NCBI GenBank assembly: GCA_035759705.1
Contig: DASTUJ010000175.1
Location: forward strand, 1-45,110
From: Actinomycetota bacterium
GTDB lineage: Bacteria; Actinomycetota; CADDZG01; JAHWKV01
Length of the DNA: 45,110 nt
Direction: 5' to 3'
Under the pieces are notes generated by a model. It had not been told where the DNA came from. It was given only the letters and a program-made list of their open reading frames with translations, and searched no databases. The position numbers and the translations under genes are program-made. Positions 15,540 to 34,333 of this stretch are shown in pieces. Within the stretch, counting starts at the first letter, position 1, and each line of letters starts with the position of its first letter.

Positions 15540-16688
15540 CTAGAAACCCTTCGAGGCCCGGTACACCAGGCACCCTCCCAGGCCGGCCGGGTCGGTGAGC
15601 CGGAGGAGCCTGGTCCGTGAGCCCTCGAGCACCTGACAGTCGGCGCGCCACCCGAACGCATCGGCGATCTGCGCTTCCGCAGCCAGCTGGGAGGCGCGCT
15701 CGCCGGCGCCGAGCGAAGCCAGCCAGTAGCTCTGCAGCGAGAGAAGCTCGAAGTTGAGCCCGGCCGCCCTGGCTCCCCGGTCGAGCCCCGAGAAGTCCAC
15801 GTCGGCGGTGATGTCCTGTCGACCGGGCTCCTCCAGCGGCTCGGAACCCCGGCCCGCACCCGAATAGGTGGCCACAGTGCCGCGAGGCCCCCTCAGCCAG
15901 ATGTCGGGCTCCTCGTCCCCGTAGTCGATTATCAGCAGGTACCCGCGAGAGAGCGCCGCGCTGACGGCCCTACACCAATCGGCGATCTGGGGACGGATCT
16001 CGAAGCTGTCGCCCTCGTTCAGCTGCGCCTGGAAGGGGAGAACCGGTGAGGTCATCGCCTCGGACGACGGCGGCCGGACAGTTTCCACCAACCGGTTGTC
16101 CCTCCAGGCGACGCAGACCTCCTGAATCCTGCCGTCGGTCTTGCGGAATCGATGGAACGGGAAGTTGTCGAGCACTTCGTTGCCCAGGACGCAGCCGACC
16201 GTCGGTGGGCCTTCCAGCGACGAGACCCACTCGACGTGCCGCGCCGCAGGCCCCAGGTGCTCCCGCTGCATGCGGGCCACCGAGTCGAACTGCTCGACGA
16301 TGCGCCAGTGCAGGGCCTCAAGGAGAGGCCCGGCGGACCGGATCGCTCCCTCGGCCAGTCCCGCCAGACCGGCGCCGAACTCGGTGATTGTGAACGGATC
16401 GGGACGGCCGAGAGCCTCCCACATCGCCCGGAGCTCGACGGCGACCATCTCGCCGAACTCGGGGCCGATCGAGGCGGAGGTCTCATAGGAGACGCCTCTG
16501 CCGGGGACCCGGTTTGCGTAATAGCCGTGCACCGGGTGGTAAAGCACCAGCTGCAGGTAACGGTCGAAGGTGATGGGGCCGGTTCTGGTGAGCAGGGACT
16601 CGAGCTCCGACAACATGTCCTCGGGCGGGCGCGGCTGAGTCGGGCGGCGGGGGGGCGCGGGGGCGGCGGCGCTCTTCACGCATCCCAT
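15540..16688 (-). CDS. SAM-dependent methyltransferase, MidA/NDUFAF7 (DUF185) family
   Basis: This 382-residue protein matches the COG1565 family: GPITFDRYLQLVLYHPVHGYY near the N-terminus, then TSASIGPEFGEMVAVELRAMW, the SAM-binding ITEFGAGLAGLAEGAI, CVLGNEVLDNFPFHRF and LLIIDYGDEEPDIW. The mitochondrial relative NDUFAF7 methylates an arginine of a complex I subunit; the bacterial substrate is unknown. The ATG at 16688 has GGAG seven bases upstream. The frame stays open to 17354, but that upstream part is antisense-frame sequence of the DsbA-like gene and is not coding. The gene lies 86 bases downstream of the DsbA-like gene and is convergent with tsaD. Confidence 0.85.
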   Translation of the reverse strand: MGCVKSAAAPAPPRRPTQPRPPEDMLSELESLLTRTGPITFDRYLQLVLYHPVHGYYANRVPGRGVSYETSASIGPEFGEMVAVELRAMWEALGRPDPFTITEFGAGLAGLAEGAIRSAGPLLEALHWRIVEQFDSVARMQREHLGPAARHVEWVSSLEGPPTVGCVLGNEVLDNFPFHRFRKTDGRIQEVCVAWRDNRLVETVRPPSSEAMTSPVLPFQAQLNEGDSFEIRPQIADWCRAVSAALSRGYLLIIDYGDEEPDIWLRGPRGTVATYSGAGRGSEPLEEPGRQDITADVDFSGLDRGARAAGLNFELLSLQSYWLASLGAGERASQLAAEAQIADAFGWRADCQVLEGSRTRLLRLTDPAGLGGCLVYRASKGF

Positions 16689-16774
16689 TGAACCGCTCCG
16701 CTGCTCGACAGGCAAGGCCGACATATCCGAGAGGCCCTTGGCCGGTGGAAGGTAAATGCAATGCGCTTCGTCCG

Positions 16775-17395
16775 TCAGAACCCGGCCGGGAGACGCTCCT
16801 TCATCACGTCGGCGTTCGAGTAGCCGATCGTCAGCAGGTGGCCCTGGTCGCCCACCCGGGCGATCACCGTCGGAAAGCTCGTGATTCCCCACTCCCGGGC
16901 GACCGTGAAGTCGGCCCACGCGGCGTCCCGGTACTCCTCGGAGTCGAATGCGGCCCGGAACGCCTCCACGTCGCCGCCGACTTCGGCAACCAGGGGCAGC
17001 AGTGTTTCCAGGTCGGTCGTAATGATCCCTTCCGCATAGAACGCCTTCTGGATCCGCTTGAACAGCGGCCAGGCTCTTGCTTCGTCGAGCAGTCGCATGA
17101 GGGCGACCGCCCGGCAGGCCGGCTCGGTGTCGTACAGGAAGTCCCGGCGTGCGGTCGTGGAGTGGTCGAACGGCTGCCCGGTGGCCTGCTCGATCAGGGT
17201 CCACTCGTGCTCCAGGTGCCGGGCCAGCTCGTCGTCCATCTGCCGGGCGTTGGGGCCGGGCCTGAGACCTCCGGTGATCACCCGGAACCCGGCTTCGGGC
17301 AGGCGGCGCTGCAGCTCGTCCAGCTGGGGGGCGATGCCCCAGCACCACGAGCACATCGGGTCCCCGACGTAGATGATCTCCCGCTCCGTCTCCAC
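16775..17395 (-). CDS. DsbA-family thioredoxin-fold protein
   Basis: This 206-residue protein has the redox motif Cys15-Ser-Trp-Cys18 in IIYVGDPMCSWCWGIAPQ, a long helical insertion, and GITSFPTVIARVGDQ with the cis-proline expected of the DsbA/FrnE-like family. No signal peptide is seen, so it is probably a cytoplasmic thiol oxidoreductase or isomerase. The GTG at 17395 lies 7 bases downstream of TATCTT (17408-17403 on the minus strand), matching the leaderless pattern of other genes here. An ATG at 17455 would add 20 non-conserved residues. The following gene encodes the MidA-like methyltransferase. Confidence 0.82.
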   Translation of the reverse strand: METEREIIYVGDPMCSWCWGIAPQLDELQRRLPEAGFRVITGGLRPGPNARQMDDELARHLEHEWTLIEQATGQPFDHSTTARRDFLYDTEPACRAVALMRLLDEARAWPLFKRIQKAFYAEGIITTDLETLLPLVAEVGGDVEAFRAAFDSEEYRDAAWADFTVAREWGITSFPTVIARVGDQGHLLTIGYSNADVMKERLPAGF

Positions 17396-17471
17396 CCGCC
17401 CAAAGATACCGGTACGGGGAGAACTATGGAGTTTGCTACGATCGACGCCCGCCACTCAAGGAGATCGACTT

Positions 17472-17621
17472 TTGGTCAGGGCGCTTCTGAAACGGCTCCT
17501 GCCGCCGGTGCTGGCGCTGGCCTTCCTGGCCGGCTGTGTGAGGAACGACAACCCGGTTCTCGAGGGAACACCGCCGGAGAGCAGCCCGAGCGCGTCTGCA
17601 ACCCCCTCATCGAGCCCCTAG
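17472..17621 (+). CDS. Small predicted lipoprotein (49 residues)
   Basis: The TTG at 17472 is preceded by AAGGAG (17458-17463) at 8-base spacing. The product starts with two basic residues and a hydrophobic stretch (LLKRLLPPVLALAFLAGC) carrying a clean lipobox LAGC. It then has only about 28 residues of Pro/Ser/Thr-rich sequence, ending ATPSSSP. No domain is present, so it is a lipid-anchored short tail, or the remnant of a larger lipoprotein. The TACGAT hexamer with TG before it (17434-17442) may be its promoter. An STAND-type NTPase gene begins 40 bases downstream. Confidence 0.6.
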   Translation: MVRALLKRLLPPVLALAFLAGCVRNDNPVLEGTPPESSPSASATPSSSP

Positions 17622-17661
17622 TCTGCGACAGGGACGGATGCGAACCGAGGAGGCCGTCGAG

Positions 17662-18687
17662 GTGACCGCACCGCTCTGCCCCTACCGTGGACCGGCCGTT
17701 TTTCAGGCCGAGGATGCCGGCTGGTTTTTCGGCCGGACCAAGCTCGTAACGCAACTGGTTTCCCGAGTTCAGGAGCGGACCACGCTGGTGGTGGCCGGGC
17801 CTTCGCGGTGCGGCAAGTCGTCGTTGGTCGGGGCGGGTCTTCTGCCGGCAATCTCCCGGAATGCACTTCCCGGAAGCGCCGGCTGGCCGCAGAGCTTGTT
17901 TATCCCCGGCACGCACCCTCTGGACGCGCTCTGGGGCGCCATGGGCCGTCTCTCCGCGGAGCCGCTGCCCGACATCTTCTCGCTGGAGGAGGCGCCCGGA
18001 ACGGCGGCGACCAGGTTCGTCCGGGAAGGCGTCCTGGTTGTCGACCAGTTCGAAACCGTGTTCACCGCAGCCACCGACCCGGCCGAGCGGGGGGCCTTCC
18101 TCAGCGTGCTGGAGGCGCTCGATTCCGAGCAGAGCGTCCGGATGATCCTGTGTATCGGCACCGAGTTCTACGGGCCCTGCTCGGCTGTTCCCTGGCTGGC
18201 CTCGGCCATCAGTGAGAACCACGTGCTGGTGGGTCGGCCGTCTGACGAGGAGCTGCGTGAGGTGATCGAAGGGCCGGCACGAAAGGGAGGGTTGCGCCTC
18301 GAGGAGGGGTTGGCCGACCGGATGCTGGACGACGTCCGGAACGACCCGACACCCCTGGTCTCCCTGTCAGGGGTTCTGCGCGAGACGTGGAACCGGCGCA
18401 AGGGCCGCATCCTGACGATCGAGGGCTACGAGCAGGTCAGGGAACCGACCGGGGCCCCCACCCAGGCGGCGTCCCCCGCCGGCCGGGAGTCACAGCGGGC
18501 GGATCCCAAAGCCGCAGCTGCGCCAACACCGGTACCGGCGTCGCCGAGCGTTCCGGCCTCCCGGCCCTCGGCCGGTGCCCGGAGGGTTGCCTCACGTCGG
18601 GTGCCGCCGGTTTTGGTGGCTTTGTTCCTTCTGGCGCTGCTGGCGTCACTGGCCCTGGGTATCCTGCTGACACAGATGGCTCATTAG
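17662..18687 (+). CDS. nSTAND1-type P-loop NTPase with C-terminal membrane anchor
   Basis: This protein has 341 residues from a GTG at 17662, which has a strong AGGAGG (17648-17653) at 8-base spacing; an ATG at 17638 would add eight residues. The N-terminus CPYRGPAVFQAEDAGWFFGR is the signature opening of the novel STAND NTPase 1 domain. Walker A is GPSRCGKSSLVGAGLLPAI (46-54 core, with Arg where the family has Gly), and Walker B is VLVVDQFETVFT (about 124-135). Family members usually continue into WD40 or TPR sensor repeats. Here the NTPase is followed by an Ala/Pro/Ser-rich linker (about 255-312) and one membrane segment (PVLVALFLLALLASLALGIL) near the end. Its function is unknown. The stop codon lies inside the groES CIRCE element. 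Confidence 0.75.
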   Translation: MTAPLCPYRGPAVFQAEDAGWFFGRTKLVTQLVSRVQERTTLVVAGPSRCGKSSLVGAGLLPAISRNALPGSAGWPQSLFIPGTHPLDALWGAMGRLSAEPLPDIFSLEEAPGTAATRFVREGVLVVDQFETVFTAATDPAERGAFLSVLEALDSEQSVRMILCIGTEFYGPCSAVPWLASAISENHVLVGRPSDEELREVIEGPARKGGLRLEEGLADRMLDDVRNDPTPLVSLSGVLRETWNRRKGRILTIEGYEQVREPTGAPTQAASPAGRESQRADPKAAAAPTPVPASPSVPASRPSAGARRVASRRVPPVLVALFLLALLASLALGILLTQMAH

Positions 18688-20833: not shown

Positions 20834-21994
20834 TTGGATTCTGTAATTGGCATTGGCAAGTCGGCCCGCCAGGCCTATGGATTCGACGACATCGCAATCG
20901 TTCCCTCCCGCCGCACCCGGGACCCCGATGACGTAGACATCTCCTGGGAGATCGACGCCTACCGCTTCGACCTGCCGCTGATGGCTTCGGCGATGGACGC
21001 CGTCGTCTCCCCGGCCAGCGCAGTGCTAATCGGCAAGCTCGGCGGGCTGGCCGTGCTGAACCTGGAGGGCCTGCACAGCCGGTACGAGGACGCCGATGCA
21101 ATCCTGCAGGAGATCTCCGAGCTCCCGACCGCCGCGGCCACCGCCCGCATGCAGGAGCTTTACCAGCAGCCGGTCAAAGAGGACCTGATGGCCAGGGCGA
21201 TCTCGGAGATCAAGGCCGGGGGCGTCACCGCAGCCGCCAGCCTCACCCCCCAGAAGGTGCGGGAGTACGCCCACATCGTCGTGGAGGCGGACCTGGACAT
21301 CCTGGTGATCCAGGGGACGGTCGTGTCGGCCGAGCACATGTCGACCCAGTCCGAGCCGCTGAACCTGAAGGAGTTCATCGCCACCTTCGACCTTCCGGTC
21401 ATCGTCGGCGGGTGCGCCTCCTACCAGCCGGCGCTCCACCTGATGCGAACCGGCGCCATCGGCATCCTGGTCGGCGTCGGACCGGGCGCCGCCTGCACCT
21501 CACGCCAGGTGCTGGGCATCGGTGTGCCGCAGGCGACTGCCATCGCCGACGCAGCCGGCGCCCGCATGCGCCACCTCGACGAAACCGGCCGTTACGTGCA
21601 GGTCATCGCCGACGGCGGTATGCGCACCGGCGGCGACATAGCCAAGGCGATCGCCTGCGGGGCCGACGCAGTGATGATCGGTTCACCGCTGGCCCGAGCA
21701 GTCGAGGCGCCGGGGCGGGGCTTCCACTGGGGCATGGCCACCTTCCACTCCGGGCTTCCCCGGGGCGTTCGGATCGCCGCCCCGCCGCTCGGGACTGCGC
21801 AGCAGATCCTGACCGGCCCGACGAGCCTGAACGACGGCACGATGAACCTGTTCGGCGCCCTTAGGACCTCGATGGCGACCACCGGCTACGAGTCGGTCAA
21901 GGACTTCCAGAAGGCGGAGGTCGTGATCGCTCCCTCGATCAAGACCGAAGGCAAGTTCGCGCAGCAGCACCAGGGGATCGTCGACTACACCTAG
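20834..21994 (+). CDS. guaB3: GuaB3-family IMP dehydrogenase-related protein
   Basis: This 386-residue TIM-barrel protein matches GuaB3: ARQAYGFDDIAIVPSRRTRD, LPLMASAMDAVVSPASAVLI, LGGLAVLNLEGL, the IMPDH-like loop VGVGPGAACTSRQVLGIG with the active-site cysteine, and VIADGGMRTGGDIAKAIACG. CBS domains are absent, as in the family. GuaB3 accompanies canonical guaB in Actinomycetota, and its precise reaction was long unclear. No canonical guaB is in this window. The TTG at 20834 has no obvious Shine-Dalgarno sequence. A TATATC -10-like hexamer lies near 20780. A strong terminator follows. Confidence 0.9.
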   Translation: MDSVIGIGKSARQAYGFDDIAIVPSRRTRDPDDVDISWEIDAYRFDLPLMASAMDAVVSPASAVLIGKLGGLAVLNLEGLHSRYEDADAILQEISELPTAAATARMQELYQQPVKEDLMARAISEIKAGGVTAAASLTPQKVREYAHIVVEADLDILVIQGTVVSAEHMSTQSEPLNLKEFIATFDLPVIVGGCASYQPALHLMRTGAIGILVGVGPGAACTSRQVLGIGVPQATAIADAAGARMRHLDETGRYVQVIADGGMRTGGDIAKAIACGADAVMIGSPLARAVEAPGRGFHWGMATFHSGLPRGVRIAAPPLGTAQQILTGPTSLNDGTMNLFGALRTSMATTGYESVKDFQKAEVVIAPSIKTEGKFAQQHQGIVDYT

Positions 21995-22009
21995 CTCTGC
22001 CGCCCTAAG

Positions 22010-22050
22010 ACGATCCCCCACCGGCTTCACGTTGGGGGATCGTTTCTTTT
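22010..22050 (+). terminator. Rho-independent terminator after guaB3
   Basis: An 11-bp perfect stem ACGATCCCCCA (22010-22020) / TGGGGGATCGT (22033-22043) with a 12-base loop, followed by TTCTTTT. Confidence 0.93.
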
Positions 22051-22114
22051 ACCGGGGCCTAGCCACAGAGTGCCGGCGGCGTGAGAATTCGCAGGGACAG
22101 CTCAGGGGGTTTTC

Positions 22115-23623
22115 TTGCGCCGGGTTCGATCGCTGGGATCTAGATCGGTCCTCACTCTCGCTCTGGTGTGCGGGGCCCTGGCTTCAGGGGACCCTGCAGC
22201 CCGTGCCGCCCCCGGCGACGCAGGGGCGATTGCGGGCGGAGACCTGATCCGGATGTTGGCCGGCGACCAGGCGGCCACCCTCTCGGGATTGCGGGTGGAG
22301 GGGGACCTGAACCTGGCAGCGTTGCAGAATGTCCGCCGGCCCCTCAGGTGTCAGAGCTGCCGTTTCACCGGCAGGATCACCGGGACAGATCTCATCTTCG
22401 AACGGATCGTCGACTTCAACGGATCGGTGTTCGAGGGGCCCGTAGACCTGTCCGCCGTTCTGTTCCGGGACCGGGCCGGCTTTGAAGGAGTGACCTTCAG
22501 CGGCCCGGTGACGTTCGGCTCGACCCGGTTCCTGGCGGACGCGTCGTTCGCCGGGACCCAGTTCCAGGGGGCTGCCGTCTTCGACCGGGTCCAGTTCAGC
22601 GGAGGCGCGCTGTTCTCCGATGCCGTCTTCGCCTCGGACGCCGGCTTCCAGGCCACCCAGTTCGGCAGTGGCGCCGACTTTGCCGGCGCCGACTTCGAAG
22701 CCGCCGCAATCTTTGCGTCGGCAGGCTTCGGCAAGAAGGTGTCGTTCGCCCGGTCCAATTTCGCCGGGGCCGCCGAGTTCCGGGGGGCGGTTTTGAGCGG
22801 AGGAGCCAACCTGGGCGTAGAAAGGTTCGACCAGGGCGTTAGCCTCGAGGCGGTTACCGCCGCGGGGTCGGTTGAGTTCCTGGGCGCGGCTCTCCAGGGG
22901 GAGGGCGTCTTCAACAACTTTGCCAGCACCGGGTTGCTGGCTTTGGACGGGATCCGGGTGCTTGGGTCCAACTCCGGGCTCTTTCTGGACCAGATCTCGG
23001 TTTCCAGGTTGACGATGGACGTCGACCAGATCGAAGTGGTACAGGGCCGCAACGTTCAAAAGACCGTCCTGAAGCTGGTGGAGAAGAGCGGCAGGGAGTC
23101 GGGGGACCTGGCGCTGGCCAACCGCGCTCGATTTCAGCTCCTGGATCTGGAGGGCGAGGAGAAGGAGGGATTCTGGCGGTGGTGGGACCGCCTGGTCTTT
23201 CGTGATATCAGCGGTTATCTGGTCAGACCCATCCACCCGCTGGTCACACTGGCGATCCTGCTGCTCGCCGGCGCGATGATTCGGTCCGCCGGGTCGCTGC
23301 GCCTGGGGTTTATGAGCTGGTGGAGGTCCCGGTCTTCGACCCCGGAGCCGCCCACGCTGAGGGGCAAGCTGCGGGCGTGGCTGCTGCTGGGGGAAAAGGG
23401 GGTGAGCCGGGTCCTCGAGGGGCTGAGCCGAACCTTGAACGTCGCCATAAGGCGAAAAGCCGAGATCAAGCTGGAGAACCGGGAGCGGGTCCGCGATTAC
23501 CTCATGGCCGGCCTGCTGTGGGGCGAGTTCCTGCTCTACAAGCTCGTGTTCGCAATTTTCGTCCTGGCGCTGGGTAACTCGAACTCGACCGTGCGCCAGC
23601 TATTGGATGCGGTGACCGGATAA
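22115..23623 (+). CDS. Secreted pentapeptide-repeat protein with C-terminal membrane segments
   Basis: This 502-residue protein was not assigned to a named family. It has a signal peptide (about 10-31, SVLTLALVCGALAS...ARA/A). Residues about 80-290 form a right-handed quadrilateral beta-helix of pentapeptide-like repeats (FDRVQFSGGALFSDAVFASD, then DFAGADFEAAAIFASAGFGK). A loop-rich section with QFQLLDLEGEEKEGFWRWW-like helices follows. Hydrophobic segments lie near 370-390 (HPLVTLAILLLAGAMI) and 470-490 (LLYKLVFAIFVLALGNSN). The layout resembles pentapeptide proteins fused to channel-like membrane parts, but no selectivity filter is recognisable. The TTG start has AGGGGG five bases upstream. 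The next gene begins 4 bases after its stop. Confidence 0.75.
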   Translation: MRRVRSLGSRSVLTLALVCGALASGDPAARAAPGDAGAIAGGDLIRMLAGDQAATLSGLRVEGDLNLAALQNVRRPLRCQSCRFTGRITGTDLIFERIVDFNGSVFEGPVDLSAVLFRDRAGFEGVTFSGPVTFGSTRFLADASFAGTQFQGAAVFDRVQFSGGALFSDAVFASDAGFQATQFGSGADFAGADFEAAAIFASAGFGKKVSFARSNFAGAAEFRGAVLSGGANLGVERFDQGVSLEAVTAAGSVEFLGAALQGEGVFNNFASTGLLALDGIRVLGSNSGLFLDQISVSRLTMDVDQIEVVQGRNVQKTVLKLVEKSGRESGDLALANRARFQLLDLEGEEKEGFWRWWDRLVFRDISGYLVRPIHPLVTLAILLLAGAMIRSAGSLRLGFMSWWRSRSSTPEPPTLRGKLRAWLLLGEKGVSRVLEGLSRTLNVAIRRKAEIKLENRERVRDYLMAGLLWGEFLLYKLVFAIFVLALGNSNSTVRQLLDAVTG

Positions 23624-23627
23624 GGCG

Positions 23628-25148
23628 GTGATCGGGGTGACGACGAGAAAGGGTGTTGGGGCGATAGTGCTGAGCTTGCTCCTGGTGTCATGCGGCAATG
23701 GGGATGGTGGAGAGAATGGGGCCACTCCCACCCCCGGCGAGACCGGCGCGACCAGCGAGCCGTCCCCAGGTGGGCAGCCGGTGGGACGGGTGATCTCGGT
23801 CCTCGAGAGCCTGGCCCGGATCCAGGGGGAGCGGGCCGGCGGCGGCGACCCGATCTTCCAGGGGAGCGAGTTGAGCACCGACGTCCGGGGCCGCGCCACC
23901 TTCAGCGTCCTCGACATCCTGGAGGACTGCCAGATCCAGTCCGACTCCCGCCTCACCGTGGCGACTGCCCCCCGGAACCCGCTGGCGGTCCAGCAGGGCA
24001 GCGTGATCTGCCGCTCCAAGCCGGGCAGCGACGAGTTCCGAATCGAGGCCGGGCAGGCCGAGGTGGGGTTCCTGGACCCGATCTTCCAGTTGGAGGTGAC
24101 CCAATCCCAAACCGATGTCAGGGTTGACTTCGGGTTCGTCCAGGTCCGCAAGCCGGGCCGGTCGGAAGCCCGGTTGGTCGGCCCGGGCTCCGAGTACAGC
24201 GTGGGCCGGGGCGCCCTTCGGGCCCCCAGGGCCACCTCGTTCCAGATGGACTCTCTCGGCCGCTTCGACGTCGAGGCGCTCAACCGGATGCGGACTGCCC
24301 TCCCGAGAGACATAAGGGGATTCCCCCCGGCCGCCAACTCGCGCACCCTTCCCCAGGTCAGGTCGCAGCGCGTCCTGCGACTGGGGTTCGACGACATCGC
24401 GTCCGAACAGAGTGAGGACTTCGTCGACGCACTGGCCGGGGTGATCTCGGGTCGCTGGGGAGTCCGGTCGGAAGCCGGGCCGCTGGAGCGGGAAGAGGCC
24501 TCGCAGGCGCTCGCCGAGGGCCGCCTGGATGCGTACATCTCGCCGGAGCCGGTGCCGGGGGCGGCGCGGATCCCGTTGTTTGGAGACGAGGACGAGCGGA
24601 CCTGGTTCCTCCGCGTCAAGCCGGATGCCGGCTTTCAGGCCGTGCTGGAGACCCTGCTGAAGACCACCCTCGACCGGGGCGATTACGCCGCGGCGTACGC
24701 GAGTGCGTTCGGCCGGCTGCCTACCTACGAAGCCGTGCGGTCGCTCGTGTACCCGGACTCCGAGCAGGCCAACCGAAGCCAGTGGCGCCAGCCGGAGGAG
24801 GTCCGGCAGTCGCCGTCCGCGGAAGCCGAGGTCGGCGGCGCGGTTCTGGCGGCCAGCCCGGCGAAGTTCTCGGGTGGCTGTCCGGTCAGGGTCACTTTTT
24901 CCGGCAAGCTGGTCATCGAGCGGCCGGGCGACGTGGAGTACCAGTACCTGAGCTCCGACGGGACCGTCACCAAGATGCAGGAGGTCCAGTTCGAAAAGGC
25001 GGGCACCTTCGAGCTGAAGGACCGGCCCGCCCTGCAGGTGGACGAAAGCGCCTCGGGGTGGTGGATCCTCGTGGTTCCGAAGCAGGACGTCCAGTCGGAG
25101 AAGGCGGATTACACCGTTACGTGCGAGTCGCCTCCGGTCGTCGACTAG
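23628..25148 (+). CDS. Lipoprotein with FecR-like domain and binding-protein-like domain
   Basis: This 506-residue product starts at a GTG. The N-terminus has a lipobox (AIVLSLLLVSC), then a Gly/Pro/Thr-rich linker. Residues about 70-200 look like a FecR-type beta domain (GSELSTDVRGRATFSVLD, then QQGSVICRS and RVDFGFVQVRKPG). Residues about 250-385 resemble lobes of a periplasmic type-2 solute-binding protein (RVLRLGFDDIASEQSEDFVD, then LAEGRLDAYISPEP and TWFLRVKPDAGFQAVLETLL). A C-terminal Ig-like segment (GCPVRVTFSGKLVIERPGDV) closes the protein. It is probably co-transcribed with the pentapeptide-repeat gene. No transporter permease is adjacent. The assignment of each domain is by pattern only. 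Confidence 0.7.
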   Translation: MIGVTTRKGVGAIVLSLLLVSCGNGDGGENGATPTPGETGATSEPSPGGQPVGRVISVLESLARIQGERAGGGDPIFQGSELSTDVRGRATFSVLDILEDCQIQSDSRLTVATAPRNPLAVQQGSVICRSKPGSDEFRIEAGQAEVGFLDPIFQLEVTQSQTDVRVDFGFVQVRKPGRSEARLVGPGSEYSVGRGALRAPRATSFQMDSLGRFDVEALNRMRTALPRDIRGFPPAANSRTLPQVRSQRVLRLGFDDIASEQSEDFVDALAGVISGRWGVRSEAGPLEREEASQALAEGRLDAYISPEPVPGAARIPLFGDEDERTWFLRVKPDAGFQAVLETLLKTTLDRGDYAAAYASAFGRLPTYEAVRSLVYPDSEQANRSQWRQPEEVRQSPSAEAEVGGAVLAASPAKFSGGCPVRVTFSGKLVIERPGDVEYQYLSSDGTVTKMQEVQFEKAGTFELKDRPALQVDESASGWWILVVPKQDVQSEKADYTVTCESPPVVD

Positions 25149-25179
25149 GGGCGCCGGCCGGCCTAGTATGCCCGTCAAA

Positions 25180-25857
25180 TCAACTGCTAAAAACCTCGGT
25201 GTCCTTGAAGACCAACCTCGAGCCGGTTATCCGATCAAACAACTCGATTCTTACGAACACTCGAGCGGCGCTGGCGGTGGTCGTATCCACCCAAAACTCC
25301 CAACTTCCCAGATCGTCGTCTTTCTTTTCGGCCGTGAATGTGAGCGGAAGAGGATCGAGATCCTCCGACTCGCCCAATCGTTTACCGGAATCGGCGTCAA
25401 AGACGGACCATCGCTGCGCCAGGTCGATGTTGCGGACACCGTTCACCCTGAAATCAAAATGAACCACCCCTCCGACACGGTCCAGAAACTCGCGTTTCGC
25501 CCGCCGGAACTCCTTCAAATCACGCTCCCCGACCACTCTCTCGACGGTCGGATGATTGAGATATTGATCCAGGGTAACGTTGGGTTCAACGGCTACCTGA
25601 GCAATCTCGACCAGGTTGCCGGTGGAAGGGGCGAGGTTGGGCCTGACGATAAAGAGCGCACCCAATAGGCCCGTTACTACGCCGATGACTCCAGTCGTTA
25701 GACCGAGCATCGTTGAAGCCGCAGGACTCCATCGCCCAAAGACCGCCCCGGCACTATTCCTCCTCGGACCCTGGTCCTGGGAGCGCTTTCTTTCCTTCTT
25801 GCCGGCTCCGGACTCGGATTCGGCGGCCGGTTCTTGCCTGGATCTGCGCCGGCGCAC
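25180..25857 (-). CDS. Single-pass membrane protein, function unknown
   Basis: This is a 225-residue product. A basic/Ser-rich cytoplasmic N-terminus (about 1-48, rich in RRR and KKERKR) is followed by one membrane segment (MLGLTTGVIGVVTGLLGALF) and an extracytoplasmic beta-rich domain (HFDFRVNGVRNIDLAQRWSV, then WEFWVDTTTASAARVFVRIE). No family is recognised. The GTG start at 25857 abuts the TAG of the upstream gene, so the two minus-strand genes form an operon. Base composition is lower in GC than the flanks (hand count 99 of 180 bases at 25201-25380, about 55%). Confidence 0.72.
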   Translation of the reverse strand: MRRRRSRQEPAAESESGAGKKERKRSQDQGPRRNSAGAVFGRWSPAASTMLGLTTGVIGVVTGLLGALFIVRPNLAPSTGNLVEIAQVAVEPNVTLDQYLNHPTVERVVGERDLKEFRRAKREFLDRVGGVVHFDFRVNGVRNIDLAQRWSVFDADSGKRLGESEDLDPLPLTFTAEKKDDDLGSWEFWVDTTTASAARVFVRIELFDRITGSRLVFKDTEVFSS

Positions 25858-27042
25858 CTAGGGCGCCCGTCTGCGCAACAAGAACCAGATTCCGAGGACC
25901 ACCAGGACGAATCCTGCAGTCCATATCGCCGCAGCGGCGGCACCATCGGCAATCGGTGCGGCAAGATTTCGCAGGATCCATCCGGGCTCATTCCGGGATC
26001 CATTCTCCGGCGGATTGACCCTTTGATCCTCGTCTCGCCGAATCCCGGTCCCCGTGGGCTCGGGGGTCGGTTCAGTCGGATGTTCCGCCGGCGTTGTTTC
26101 AATTGGTCGGTCAGGTTCGGCTCCCCCACCGCCCTTCGGGTCCTCTTTCCTTACGTCCTTGGCGTCATCCTTGAGCACCTTCATGTTGAATGCAGGCTGC
26201 AGCGAAACTATCGGCGGACATGCAATCTGTGTAGGTTCCTCCACGATGAACAAACCCGAGGCGAAGACTATGGGCGCGGTTTCCTGCGCAGGAGCTTGCA
26301 TGACTTCGCCGCCGGTACTCTTGCGAACCGTTGTAACCCGGTAGCGAAGCGGGACGTCGGCCGGGGGACTTTCGTCCGAATATGAAGAAGGATTCGATTC
26401 CTGCCTTATTTCTTTCGGACCGATGACCTCAACAGAACTGAGCGGGACGAACGGTTCCTTTCCTACCGAGCGCTCAATGAGAAATTTCCCGATGTCCAGG
26501 TAACGCCTCTCTGCGCACCAGTAAAGGCGGATGGTTGCACCCAAGCGCTGGGCGCGGAGAAATTGGACCGGGAGGGGACGATTGTTGATATCGAACTCAA
26601 TTGATGCTTGTTCCGAGTCGGCTTGTCCGCCGTGGAGCGACACGATTGCAGAGAGACGGTACCGCCCATTGCTCAGGTAGGCGCCGTCGACGAAGCCCGG
26701 GTACTCGTAGATAACGGGGTAGTCCGTGTCCCATCTACCCTCGACAGTCAGTTCTCGCGGTGCCTCGTCGCCATCCCAGCTCTGCAGGGTCAACTGCTGG
26801 CTCCACTTTGGAAAGACCGGGCCCACCGACTCCACGTTTAACTTGAAGCTGCGGATGGGTTCAGCGCTGCGAGCGTTGACAACAATCGGCACAGGCCCGC
26901 CCAGATAGGCCCCGTTACCCGGGGAAGCAAACGAGAGTTCGATTTGGGGCCTGGTATCGGAGCCGGCGGAGTGCGCCGGAACAGCCGAGATCAACAAGGT
27001 GCTGAGTGCGCAAAGCAAGAAGAGTCGCTTGACTGGTCCCAT
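25858..27042 (-). CDS. Secreted protein with Ig-like/fibronectin-like region and C-terminal membrane anchor
   Basis: This 394-residue protein has a signal peptide (RLFLLCALSTLLISAVPAHS/A). A beta-rich ectodomain follows: PGNGAYLGGPVPIVVNARSA, like an Ig fold, then YRLSAIVSLHGGQADSEQA. A segment LRAQRLGATIRLYWCAERRY...PLRYRVTTVR resembles a fibronectin-III-like module. A Pro/Glu/Thr-rich stalk (about 300-350) leads to a C-terminal membrane segment (AAIWTAGFVLVVLGIWFLLR). It is translationally adjacent to the next membrane gene downstream. The function is unknown; it looks like a cell-surface protein. Like its partner, it is less GC-rich than its neighbours. Confidence 0.72.
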   Translation of the reverse strand: MGPVKRLFLLCALSTLLISAVPAHSAGSDTRPQIELSFASPGNGAYLGGPVPIVVNARSAEPIRSFKLNVESVGPVFPKWSQQLTLQSWDGDEAPRELTVEGRWDTDYPVIYEYPGFVDGAYLSNGRYRLSAIVSLHGGQADSEQASIEFDINNRPLPVQFLRAQRLGATIRLYWCAERRYLDIGKFLIERSVGKEPFVPLSSVEVIGPKEIRQESNPSSYSDESPPADVPLRYRVTTVRKSTGGEVMQAPAQETAPIVFASGLFIVEEPTQIACPPIVSLQPAFNMKVLKDDAKDVRKEDPKGGGGAEPDRPIETTPAEHPTEPTPEPTGTGIRRDEDQRVNPPENGSRNEPGWILRNLAAPIADGAAAAAIWTAGFVLVVLGIWFLLRRRAP

Positions 27043-27170
27043 GACGGTATCGCTCTTTGTCTGCCAACAGCTCGGCTAAGCCTACCCATCCGGGCACTGA
27101 AGTTGATCGGCAAAAGTACCCATTTACCGCAAGCAAAATGCCTCAAAATCTCGGCGGGACCGTTGCACGG

Positions 27171-27176
27171 TATCCT
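27171..27176 (+). promoter_or_regulatory. Probable -10 element of guaA
   Basis: TATCCT ends 8 bases before the ATG at 27185. No ribosome-binding site lies between, so a leaderless transcript is likely. This supports ATG 27185 over the TTG at 27176, which overlaps the hexamer. Confidence 0.4.
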
Positions 27177-30760: not shown

Positions 30761-33700
30761 CTATGCCGGGGACGGTTCCGGTGTTGTTTCCGGCTCCGCC
30801 GGCTGGGGAGGGATCTCCACGTCGGCGGCGAACGGTGACAGCAGGAAGGAGAACCTGGCCACCTGGGGCGCCCACTCCTGGTAGGGGCGGATGGTGGTCT
30901 GCTTCACCTTGGGCAGCAGGTCCTTGAGAGTTGTAGCGATCTCGTCCCACGCCGGTCTGTCGGCCGGGGGGATGGACGCCAGCAGGGCATTCTCGGCCAC
31001 GATTGTCGTTCCGCTGTAGTAGTAGTTGGGTGCGAGCCCCTCGACAAACTCCTTCCACGATCCGCCGGCCGGCCGGTGGAGCAGGCCGCCGAGCCTTATG
31101 TCGCCTCCGTCGGGCCGGGCAGTGATGATGTGGCCCAGGATCTTCGGGTGCGCGGTCAGGATCGCAAGGAGCTGGGCCACCGCCTGGTACTCGCCGGGGT
31201 GCTTCTCGGTGCCGAGGAACTCGGAAGCTTCCTCGACGCTGCGGGCGGAGCGCAGCATGCGGTAGAGGTTGAACATCCGCTTGGCCGACCTGGGGGTCCT
31301 GACCAGGTCGCCAAGCTCATCGAGGAACTCGAGCTCCCGGTCGGTGAGCGGCTGGATGACGGGTTGTTTGCCGGTGGCGAGGTTGTCGACCGCGGAGCCC
31401 TCCTGGCCGGTGAGCGGCACCGCTGCGGCGGCGATGGTGGCTGCAGCCTGTGCGGCGTCCGTGGCGGCGGGAGCCTGCTCGTGTGTTGCAGGAGCAGCCT
31501 CCGCAGTGGGTTCCTGGGGTTTTGTCTCGACTGGTTGCGCCGGCTGAGCCTCCTCCGGGGCCGGGCTTTCCGATGGGACGGGTGCCGGGTCCGCCTGAAC
31601 GACGGCTTCGACGGACGGGGCTGCCGGCTCGGAGGATAAATCCGGGCTGGGGGCCTGTTTGGAGGTGCCGTAAGCCATGACCCTCAGCAGCTTGGAGAAT
31701 CCCTTCTTGTCCATGGCGGGCAGCACCAAAGGGATGTTGAAGATCTTCTCCAGGTAGTCGTTGGGGGTCGAGCCCCGGAACCCATCCTGTTCGACCTCGT
31801 CCGAAGCCCCCATGATCCCCTGGTACCGCAGCCGGAGGGAACGCTGGAGCCAGCGGGGGTCGACTCCAACCACGACGACGAACAGGTTCATCGCCAGCAA
31901 CAGGTGGACCGCCTGCAGAACGTCGACCACCTGGGCGGGCTCGCAGCGGTCGAGGTCGTCGATGTACAGGACAATTCGGTCGAGCGGAGGCGGCTGGACG
32001 GCCTGGTCGGTGGCCGGCAGCGGGGTGTCCCGCTCCTTGGTCCAGGAGGCGATGAGCGCCACCAGCTGTTCGAAGTCCTTCCGGATCATCGATACGATGC
32101 CGAGCTGCTGCTGGTACTCGGCGCTGGCGGCCCGTTCCGCCAGAAACGCGTAGAGGCGGGAACCCGGGTTGAGCTCGGCCAGCTCCCGGCCGAGCTGCCC
32201 CACCTTTGCGACGACCTCGTCGAGCTGGGCGCTTGCGACCTGGACCCCAGCCTCGGCGGCCTGAAGCTCGCCGATCTTGTCCTTCAGTTCGTTGCTCGTC
32301 GCCGTCCGTTTCAGCTCGCGGGCTTTGACCATCCCGCTCTGCAGGGCGACCATGCCCTGACGGAGCCCGGACAGGAACTTCGTCACACTCGTCGCGGCCG
32401 CGGCGATCGCAGCGAGACCGGCCCATTTGAACTCCACCTGATCGGCGATCAGTACCGCTCCCACCCCCAGGAGTAGCAGGAGCACCAAAGTCACAGCCCG
32501 CCCGGTAGACCACTTGGCCGAGGCAAGCAGCTGCCAGGTTGAGCGGGCGTCCCGGTGGGTGCCGGAAAGCTCGTCGGCCAGCCGCTGGATTTCGTCCTCC
32601 TTGTTCAGACCGAGCTTGTCGGCGGCCACGTCGAGCTGCTTTTTGACCTCGGGATCGGCCCACAGAGCCTTGGCTACTCCGATGGCCGACGCCTCGTGGT
32701 TCGCCCTTTCCGCCTCTAGCTCACCGCGGAGCTCCTCGGCCCGGGCCCGGGCCTGGGCGGTGCTCTCCTCGAGCTCCTTGCGCTTGTTGAGGGTGCGGCC
32801 CAGCTCCTCCCGCAGTTTGTCGCGCCGGTCGGAGTTGGGGTCGGCGACGCCGTCCCGGCCCGCCAGCTGCTCGAAGATCTCGTCGGCGAGGCTGGCCCAC
32901 AGGTTGGCGTCCGAGTAGTGCCAGGCGTTGAAGTTGATGTGGACGACGTCCGAGAGAAAGGTCGAGCCCGGCTCGCCCGAGCGGGAGGTGAGTTCGCCGA
33001 TCTCCTGCTGCAGGAGCCTCATGAAGTAGCTCTTGCCGGTGCCCCACTCCCCGAACAGCCCGACCGACAGCGGCATCGGGGTGTTGCGGTCGGCGATGGC
33101 GAGGGCGAGCATCGAGACGTAGATCTGGACATCCAGCTCGTCGACGAATTTGGTGGCGCCGTCGAGGGAGGGGACCGCGTCGCCGCTGAGGCCCCCGCTG
33201 AGGAGGAAGTTGGCGGGTTCCGAGGTTTCCTCGGGGCCCGGCTCGGGTTCGGTGGGCGGCTCGGCCGCCTCCGGGCTGGCGAGATGCTCGTCCGGCGGAG
33301 CAGGTAGATCGAGGGCGGCGGCCCACCAGGGGGGCCACGGCTCTGAAGAGGTGTTGGGACGAACTGCCTGGATGGCCAGGCCCAGCCGGGACTGCAGCTC
33401 CTCGCCCGAGATACCCAGTACCAGAGGAATGGCACCGGAAAGAACCTCCACCCGGCCCGAGACGCAAGCGACCAGCAGGTGGACGACACCGACGGTCGAG
33501 CTGTGATCCACCGCCGCCATCTCGGCCGATGTGCCCAGGATCTGGGGCAGCGGCCACCTCATAATCCGTCCAAAGTTCACCGGGGCCGGGTCCAGAAGGC
33601 TGAAGTCGCTGATGGTCCCGGCGGAACCGGCCAAGCGGCGGAGCGCCGCGTCCCGTTCGGCGTACGGGCGCGAGCTCTCCAAGCCGGGCAGTTGATCGGT

Positions 33701-34333
33701 GAAAGCCACTGCGACGGCATCCCGGTTGGCGTCGACTGCGATCTTGAGTGCCGCCACCAGAACCGCTGGAGGTCCCGGTACCCGTTCGGGGTTGTTGCCC
33801 ACCAGCCTGGCGGCGAGGGTCATCACCTCGGCGGCAGTCGGGCTCAGTAGATGGTCGCCGATTCTGACCGGCATCAACAAGGCCCTCGTTGCTGCGTCCA
33901 GGACCCCGGTTGCCGGCAGACCCTCGTTGTTCTGGAACCGCTTGACGGCGGACTCGGTTCCGGAGCTGTAGATGCCGTTCGGCGCGCCGGAGATCAGTCC
34001 CGCCGAGGCGAGGGCTTCCTGGAGCTCCGCCACGTCGGGTCCTTCGCTGGCGCCGTGCAGCATCCGGCGCAGCGGGAAATCGCGGAGAAACTGGGCTCCG
34101 TCCCTCTCGCTCAGTGCCCGCCAGGTCGGGGGGCCCGTCATCCCGTCATCCGGAAATCCCACCTCAAGCTGGAACGCCCTGATGGCGGCCACCGTCTTCG
34201 GGCCGTAAACGCCGTCCACCGGGCCCGGGTCGTATCCGGCGTTGAAGAGGGCGGTCTGTAGGTTGGTGACGTCCTCGCCCTGGCTGGCCGGACGCAACTC
34301 CCTCGGCTCTTCGGGCGTGACCAGTTCAGACAT
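30761..34333 (-). CDS. Large KAP-family P-loop NTPase with peptidoglycan-binding-like repeats
   Basis: This is a 1190-residue product. Residues about 17-73 and 95-153 are two PG_binding_1-like repeats (LQTALFNAGYDPGPVDGVYG, then VAELQEALASAGLISGAPNG). Residues about 160-325 weakly resemble a Clp N-terminal repeat (VGVVHLLVACVSGRVEVLSG). An acidic Pro/Glu linker follows. The KAP NTPase occupies about 395-1150: Walker A GLFGEWGTGKSYFMRLL (428-435), VHINFNAWHYSDANLW (464-479), a coiled coil (about 505-545), two membrane segments (612-630 and 636-655), a second coiled coil, Walker B RIVLYIDDLDRCEP (786-799), then VVVVGVDPRWL. An Ala/Pro/Glu-rich insertion (about 885-985) is present. There is no signal peptide, so the wall-binding repeats would be cytoplasmic. 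It is divergent from pcrA. Confidence 0.85.
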   Translation of the reverse strand: MSELVTPEEPRELRPASQGEDVTNLQTALFNAGYDPGPVDGVYGPKTVAAIRAFQLEVGFPDDGMTGPPTWRALSERDGAQFLRDFPLRRMLHGASEGPDVAELQEALASAGLISGAPNGIYSSGTESAVKRFQNNEGLPATGVLDAATRALLMPVRIGDHLLSPTAAEVMTLAARLVGNNPERVPGPPAVLVAALKIAVDANRDAVAVAFTDQLPGLESSRPYAERDAALRRLAGSAGTISDFSLLDPAPVNFGRIMRWPLPQILGTSAEMAAVDHSSTVGVVHLLVACVSGRVEVLSGAIPLVLGISGEELQSRLGLAIQAVRPNTSSEPWPPWWAAALDLPAPPDEHLASPEAAEPPTEPEPGPEETSEPANFLLSGGLSGDAVPSLDGATKFVDELDVQIYVSMLALAIADRNTPMPLSVGLFGEWGTGKSYFMRLLQQEIGELTSRSGEPGSTFLSDVVHINFNAWHYSDANLWASLADEIFEQLAGRDGVADPNSDRRDKLREELGRTLNKRKELEESTAQARARAEELRGELEAERANHEASAIGVAKALWADPEVKKQLDVAADKLGLNKEDEIQRLADELSGTHRDARSTWQLLASAKWSTGRAVTLVLLLLLGVGAVLIADQVEFKWAGLAAIAAAATSVTKFLSGLRQGMVALQSGMVKARELKRTATSNELKDKIGELQAAEAGVQVASAQLDEVVAKVGQLGRELAELNPGSRLYAFLAERAASAEYQQQLGIVSMIRKDFEQLVALIASWTKERDTPLPATDQAVQPPPLDRIVLYIDDLDRCEPAQVVDVLQAVHLLLAMNLFVVVVGVDPRWLQRSLRLRYQGIMGASDEVEQDGFRGSTPNDYLEKIFNIPLVLPAMDKKGFSKLLRVMAYGTSKQAPSPDLSSEPAAPSVEAVVQADPAPVPSESPAPEEAQPAQPVETKPQEPTAEAAPATHEQAPAATDAAQAAATIAAAAVPLTGQEGSAVDNLATGKQPVIQPLTDRELEFLDELGDLVRTPRSAKRMFNLYRMLRSARSVEEASEFLGTEKHPGEYQAVAQLLAILTAHPKILGHIITARPDGGDIRLGGLLHRPAGGSWKEFVEGLAPNYYYSGTTIVAENALLASIPPADRPAWDEIATTLKDLLPKVKQTTIRPYQEWAPQVARFSFLLSPFAADVEIPPQPAEPETTPEPSPA

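Follow-up and report, generated by a model that had tools for sequence, protein, structure and literature searches.

We analyzed a stretch of 45,110 nucleotides (hereafter, the window) that spans positions 1 to 45,110 of contig DASTUJ010000175.1, which belongs to an Actinomycetota draft genome of 3.0 Mb in 225 contigs. On its forward strand lie two adjacent genes, delimited as open reading frames: pent (22115-23623), which encodes a 502-amino-acid (aa) repeat protein of family PF13576, and lip (23628-25148), which encodes a 506-aa lipoprotein. Pent and lip recur as a unit in other genomes of the phylum; the unit is rare, and lip is not needed by pent everywhere. We tentatively propose that the two products form an accessory complex on the outside of the cytoplasmic membrane, in which a platform (pent) would be joined by a sensing or ligand-presenting partner (lip). 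The original prediction for this locus described two large envelope genes four bases apart, and these coordinates and the gap were verified: the stop codon of pent (23621-23623) is followed by four bases and then by the GTG start codon of lip at 23628, although translation could also begin at a second GTG, at 23637. The reading frames of pent and lip are kept at 54% and 42% identity, respectively, in a genome of another genus, and third codon positions vary most.

Using profiles of pent and lip built from the window genome (G000) and genome G005 only, we searched 396 genomes of the phylum. This search identified pent in five genomes (G000, G005, G149, G188, and G385) and a clear FecR part of lip in three (G000, G005, and G385). 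G000 and G005 match their own profiles by construction, which leaves G149, G188, and G385 as independent finds of pent and G385 as the independent find of lip; later profiles also included G385, so this genome matches those by construction. In G385, which belongs to a distant family, pent (E = 3.7e-19) and the FecR part of lip (E = 5.8e-12) lie side by side. Each of the three clear lip genes is directly downstream of a pent gene, with the two genes 4 bases apart in the window, overlapping by 1 base in G005, and overlapping by 17 bases in G385. With genes named by eye, the pairs of the window and of G385 lie in different surroundings; the gene that follows the pair in G005 differs again, and the upstream side there is cut by the contig end. 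Co-occurrence, the check proposed with the original prediction, therefore holds from the side of lip (3/3 adjoin pent) but not from the side of pent, which occurs without a detectable lip in 2/5 genomes.

Searched with a profile that combined the FecR-like stretches of all three lip proteins, the 396 genomes yielded the same three proteins and otherwise only chance-level matches; eight genomes reached E ≤ 0.01, but five of these were at 0.003-0.007, which is approximately the number expected by chance. In the lip profile search, 7 of the 10 genomes at E ≤ 0.001 were not counted, as they matched the N-terminal lipobox stretch only (five genomes) or the beta-sandwich (G274 at 1.2e-7 and G382 at 3.4e-6). 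Two candidates for pent were likewise set aside, namely G062, which matched in the repeats only (1.3e-10), and G051, which matched at 0.0045 with a stop inside. When protein queries were run on 120 relatives, lip and full-length pent were both detected in the window genome and G005 only, and neither protein was present in three genomes of the same genus or in one genome of another genus in the family. Searches of 4 genomes from the family of G385, 27 from the order of G188, and 24 from the class gave no additional pent. A plasmid search with the C-terminal part of pent alone returned two chance-level matches, and a scan of genome contigs returned one locus, apparently that of G005.

The pent product matched PF13576 (Pentapeptide_3) at E = 1.1e-20 with 74 bits, against a curated cut-off of 27, and all five pent proteins matched this family at E ≤ 0.1. 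The window genome carries one clear copy, with the second place reaching only E = 0.218. As controls, we used eight plasmid-borne PF13576 proteins, including WP_284011228.1 from Haloarcula and examples from Streptomyces, Rhodococcus, Gordonia, and Kitasatospora. Based on hydropathy, pent is predicted to begin with a signal peptide (approximately residues 1-32; 22115-22210); the 12-residue hydropathy maximum at the N-terminus was 2.24-2.97 in 5/5 pent proteins versus 0.26-0.92 in 8/8 controls. An N-terminal cap follows (22220-22414), in which an RCxxC motif (C79 and C82) is invariant in all five pent proteins.

The beta-helix coils (22415-22954) are built from an alternating 5+6 residue repeat. 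Between residues 117 and 222, pent has 20 phenylalanines whose spacing alternates between 6 and 5, and counts of phenylalanine pairs were 22 at lag 11 (maximum of 8 in 2000 shuffles), 21 at lag 22, and 0 at lag 20. The lag-11 value was unmatched in 2000 shuffles for each of 13 PF13576 proteins (five pent proteins and eight plasmid-borne), although the Haloarcula protein also mixes in runs of up to four phenylalanines at spacing 5. A test for phenylalanines in phase 5 failed on pent (9364 of 10000 shuffles were as high) because the repeat period is 11. The AlphaFold2 model of pent, with a mean predicted local distance difference test score (pLDDT) of 63.7 and with residues 41-250 at 73-94 by tens and lower values beyond, places strands at residues 132, 154, 176, 198, and 220, i.e., 22 residues apart. 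Foldseek found no match to this model at E ≤ 0.001. In a second structure comparison of 585 chains, the best fold match was HetL (Z 20.0, 2.5 Å, 221 aligned residues), and other right-handed beta-helices scored ≤18.4. Classic pentapeptide proteins are described in the cited part of PMC8145042 as having four 5-residue repeats per coil. Pent departs from this 20-residue coil, yet its fold remains a right-handed beta-helix resembling HetL. Each repeat in pent has 11 residues (5+6), and each coil has 22 rather than the classic 20; the 11-residue repeat is found in 13/13 PF13576 proteins, whereas the 22-residue coil comes from the model of one only. The pentapeptide beta-helix with a signal and C-terminal membrane segments, as originally predicted, is thus upheld by PF13576, hydropathy, and the HetL-like fold, but its repeat is 11 residues rather than 5.

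Searches of solved structures with three proteins and one five-row profile gave no sequence match to the PF13576 repeat region; the sole match involved the Haloarcula protein and fell in its channel domain. Since the repeat was found in all 13 proteins examined and the repeat region has no solved-structure match, one structure of an 11-residue-repeat PF13576 protein might serve the whole family.

Beyond the coils lies a region with a linker helix and a GYLVRP motif (23048-23230 together); the motif is invariant in 5/5 pent proteins and immediately precedes the first membrane helix (residues 376-394; 23240-23296; hydropathy 1.77). In G005, this helix scores 1.41, under the threshold of 1.6. It is followed by a basic loop (23297-23512), predicted to be cytoplasmic, with 16 lysines plus arginines (K+R) and 7 aspartates plus glutamates (D+E); across the five pent proteins, the counts are 11-21 K+R versus 3-7 D+E, and loop identity to the window protein is 23-38%. 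The second membrane helix and a conserved tail, LGNSNSTVRQLLDAVTG, complete the protein (23513-23620), with the tail predicted to be outside; this region has 78% identity in G005 and 33-54% in the other three pent proteins. Topology was judged by hydropathy and charge only, and the membrane part of the AlphaFold2 model, mostly below pLDDT 50, was not used for conclusions.

The plasmid-encoded PF13576 membrane proteins share with pent the 5+6 repeat (all eight), the beta-helix, the linker, a GYxxR motif, a membrane helix, a loop of 54-87 residues, and a second hydrophobic stretch. In all eight controls, GYxxR is at the same place, the N-terminus is not hydrophobic, and the tail is basic. Their loops carry 3-10 K+R versus 1-7 D+E, with several net basic, such that loop charge alone is not decisive; the second hydrophobic stretch scored 1.29-1.41 in 5/8 controls, under the same threshold. 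Pent nevertheless appears to be the same module in inverted topology, with the beta-helix predicted outside here and inside in the eight plasmid-encoded relatives, which have no signal and a basic tail. Relative to PF13576 proteins in general, pent adds the N-terminal signal, the tail of two membrane helices, and the lipoprotein partner. A profile comparison of the linkers is no more than suggestive of common descent with other pentapeptide membrane proteins. With three controls, hhalign gave a probability of 3.2 and E = 0.014; with eight controls, the score was 25.3 and the probability 7.2, against a column-shuffle maximum of 18.9 in 60. One in 200 block shuffles scored as high, the reversed alignment scored 22.5, and the score was 21.7 without the Haloarcula protein and 13.3 with it alone.

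The lip product begins with a lipoprotein signal (23628-23693) whose lipobox, LLLVSC, ends in Cys22; this cysteine, which is predicted to be lipidated, is kept in 3/3 lip proteins. A FecR-like domain follows (residues 50-195; 23775-24212), with two invariant cysteines (C101 and C128). Its match to PF04773 (E = 0.0026; 18.6 bits, or 22.2 bits in the genome search) is below the 24-bit cut-off; all three lip proteins matched PF04773 at E ≤ 0.1, the best at 0.0013, and lip is the only PF04773 match at this level in its own genome. Pfam identified no solute-binding domain in lip and no match other than FecR at E ≤ 0.1.

Residues 236-376 (24333-24755) are probably one lobe of a type-II, two-lobed solute-binding fold whose second lobe is apparently missing. 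This assignment comes from fold comparison with a low-confidence AlphaFold2 model (mean pLDDT 42.5, with residues 236-376 at 31-77 by tens), to which all of the following structural matches refer. The best Foldseek match was 6y16, the isolated domain 1 of TmArgBP (E = 3.4e-4), and the isolated single-domain constructs 6y16 and 6xks both matched well. By VIA, 123 of the 144 residues in the isolated domain A of LAO aligned at Z 11.1. In the same comparison, 6det aligned at Z 13.2 and 3.3 Å, its 134 aligned residues being spread over positions 10-252 of a chain with 243 residues; lobe 1 of type-II amino-acid binding proteins is built from both chain ends, which fits this alignment. The likeness to TmArgBP, LAO, and Tv2483 appears to lie in a lobe-1-like fold, and the matching stretch of lip is ~141 aa, compared with 226-254 residues in the complete binding proteins that head the fold list. 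At the sequence level, a profile searched against the Protein Data Bank reached only E = 0.063, for the amino-acid binding protein AncQR. At its C-terminus (residues 398-500; 24819-25127), lip has a beta-rich domain that is probably folded as a beta-sandwich, based on AlphaFold2 strands with pLDDT of 43-71 by tens over residues 401-500.

Between the window and G005 lip proteins, identity is 53% in the FecR-like domain, 43% in the putative lobe, and 32% in the beta-sandwich. The G385 protein (343 aa) has the FecR-like domain without the binding lobe and without the beta-sandwich, and by eye it ends in a long low-complexity tail. Because the lip of this distant family is FecR-only, we take the core of the unit to be pent plus a FecR-lipoprotein. 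Where the original prediction had a lipoprotein joining a FecR-like to a solute-binding-like domain, the lipobox and the FecR-like domain (3/3) bear it out, but the second part looks like a single lobe in the low-confidence model. Like the FecR and PupR proteins, lip is predicted to carry its PF04773-like domain outside the membrane; unlike a FecR-type sigma regulator, it has a lipid anchor in place of the anti-sigma domain and membrane helix, and the four-gene insert between the flanking guaB3 and guaA genes (see below) contains no recognized sigma factor or TonB-dependent receptor.

In the complex that we tentatively favor, pent would be exported, and its beta-helix would stand outside as a rigid platform held by the two membrane helices, with the basic loop in the cytoplasm. 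Lip would be tethered beside it by the lipid anchor and would dock on pent via the FecR-like domain, because this is the only part common to all lip proteins and the periplasmic region of PupR, the first part of which is beta-solenoid-like, acts via protein contact according to the cited part of PMC7186176. The single lobe and beta-sandwich may bind a ligand or another protein, in this bacterial family only, and a change at lip could then be passed along pent to the cytoplasmic loop. The two genes, their repeat and FecR-like domains, the kept adjacency, and the lack of any recognizable channel domain are observed; we infer the binding between pent and lip, the topology of pent, the single lobe, and, above all, a signal across the membrane to the basic loop. 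Consistent with a complex, 3/3 lip genes adjoin pent in differing surroundings, the FecR-like domain is present in 3/3 lip proteins, and the signal and basic loop are present in 5/5 pent proteins.

Several observations weigh against this reading. Pent is present without a detectable lip, adjacent or elsewhere, in G149 (87% complete, with a masked stretch upstream of pent) and in G188 (81% complete), and we therefore conclude that pent has a use of its own. Only three pent-lip pairs are known, and plain tblastn misses the G385 lip, which only the profile finds. The model of lip is poor, as is most of the membrane part of the pent model, and Pfam recognized no signaling domain in the pent loop.

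Surface sensing by pent and lip is possible, with the odds of a purely structural role almost as high. Pent could be a surface rod and lip a spacer or adhesive partner in a passive envelope structure that senses nothing, an explanation that we regard as a serious contender even though it falls short of an even chance. Its role would be comparable to that of HglK, a cytoplasmic-membrane pentapeptide protein of Nostoc/Anabaena that is needed for heterocyst glycolipids and septal junctions (from the cited part of PMC8145042). HglK differs from pent in having four N-terminal membrane regions and its repeats at the C-terminus, and the same part of that source mentions no lipoprotein partner. No signaling domain was found, two of five genomes have pent without a detectable lip, and the low-complexity tail of the G385 lip takes the place of any binding lobe, all of which agree with a passive structure. 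A mere spacer, however, need not keep the loop that all five pent proteins retain, nor the putative lobe at the identity found between the two lip proteins that have it.

We also considered a more elaborate version of the sensing complex, which we think improbable. Here, pent would be a topology-inverted membrane pentapeptide protein whose beta-helix senses outside while the loop reports inside, and, together with the FecR-lipoprotein, it would make up a surface-signaling unit without a TonB receptor, sigma factor, or transporter; one lineage would have gained half of a binding protein as a ligand sensor.

It is very unlikely that the beta-helix gates an ion channel formed by the C-terminal membrane part of pent. 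Ion_trans_2 is indeed present in some PF13576 proteins, as in Haloarcula, and these share GYxxR before the first membrane helix; the Haloarcula control has this domain at 5.7e-6 together with the filter TIGYG. Neither Ion_trans_2 nor a T-x-G-[YF]-G filter motif was found in any of the five pent proteins, however, and the loop at the expected filter site is basic and more likely cytoplasmic. Among the controls, the filter motif occurs only in the Haloarcula protein (of eight), and the channel domain likewise only there (of the three scanned with Pfam). Based on Pfam, the filter motif, and loop charge compared with the eight plasmid proteins, we rejected the channel reading, and the channel-like assembly of the original prediction is not supported.

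We give slightly less credence still to the idea that lip serves an uptake system as its binding protein. Part of lip does match amino-acid binding proteins, but that stretch is far shorter than the whole proteins and has no Pfam match, and the G385 lip is without the lobe. The absence of a transporter, as originally predicted, was confirmed by Pfam and NCBIfam for the four-gene insert at the guaB3-guaA junction; next to the pairs in G005 and G385, inspection by eye revealed no permease, and no family search was made there. Least credible of all is that pent and lip are chance neighbors dropped into a variable spot, for although the guaB3-guaA junction carries different cargo in relatives, this explanation is largely refuted, unless the G385 lip is unrelated, by the same gene order with overlapping genes in G385 (with other neighbors) and in G005 (where a gene other than guaA follows).

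Other envelope or exported pentapeptide proteins resemble pent in part. As described in the cited part of PMC8145042, Rfr32 of Cyanothece has a signal peptide and 167 residues, and Rfr23 has a Cys39-Cys42 disulfide. Pent shares the signal peptide with Rfr32, and the spacing of its RCxxC motif resembles that of the Rfr23 cysteines; unlike in pent, no membrane helices are mentioned for Rfr23 and Rfr32 in that part of the source. Pentapeptide domains joined to HAAS domains are intracellular, according to the portion of PMC11237479 cited here. The original prediction considered the pair not obviously described, and a literature search, with most subscription journals outside its scope, indeed returned no description of a pentapeptide/FecR-lipoprotein pairing, but PF13576 and the FecR-like domain are themselves known kinds. 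The precise function is known for only a handful of pentapeptide repeat proteins (PMC8145042, in the part cited); pent-lip is testable, given that the partner is conserved, the beta-helix is predicted to lie outside, and the domain of the partner is of the protein-docking type.

Upstream of pent is an IMP dehydrogenase-family gene (20834-21994; Pfam), which we take to be guaB3. A terminator-like hairpin with a T-run, seen by eye on the forward strand (22010-22051), lies after this gene and separates pent-lip as its own unit; the hairpin was not listed by a hairpin scan with a loop limit of 8. Downstream of lip are two minus-strand genes of no known family, at 25180-25857 (225 aa) and 25858-27042 (394 aa), followed by guaA from 27176, named by eye from the sequence. 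Both minus-strand genes have hydrophobic segments by eye, neither matched Pfam or NCBIfam, and their G+C content is 58-59%, compared with 66% for pent, 69% for lip, and 66.6% for the window. We set them aside as further parts of the unit because their G+C content is lower and tblastn, run against 10 other loci, detected neither gene at E ≤ 1e-3.

The guaB3-guaA junction (21994-27176), which is 5.2 kb in the window, is a variable spot. Across six relatives, it is near empty (tens of bases) in G002, G006, and G007; it comprises ~370 bases with short repeats and a masked N stretch in G003 (L042:7350-7800). In G001, of the same genus, it extends to 1.4 kb, where a sigma-factor-like gene and its neighbor of 286 aa were named by eye (L040:7845-8546), and in G004 it reaches 3.9 kb and is occupied by other genes. 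The simplest account is that the pent-lip pair was gained at this junction, because the empty form occurs in two genomes from another family of the same order.

None of pent, lip, and the two minus-strand neighbors had a PADLOC match at E ≤ 0.01, and on this result a defense-system reading of pent-lip was dropped; the PADLOC match to a KAP-type protein in the window concerns a separate gene. That gene (30761-34333) encodes a 1190-aa protein with PG_binding_1 in two stretches and a KAP-type NTPase, with partial PADLOC matches to QatA/PifA of 9.5e-15 at best. Elsewhere in the window, a gene at 17638-18687 encodes an nSTAND1 NTPase (E = 2.8e-65) with a hydrophobic C-terminal segment recognized by eye. 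It lies beside a 325-aa gene (16688-17665) without a Pfam match, and both are located downstream of the TsaE and TsaD genes.

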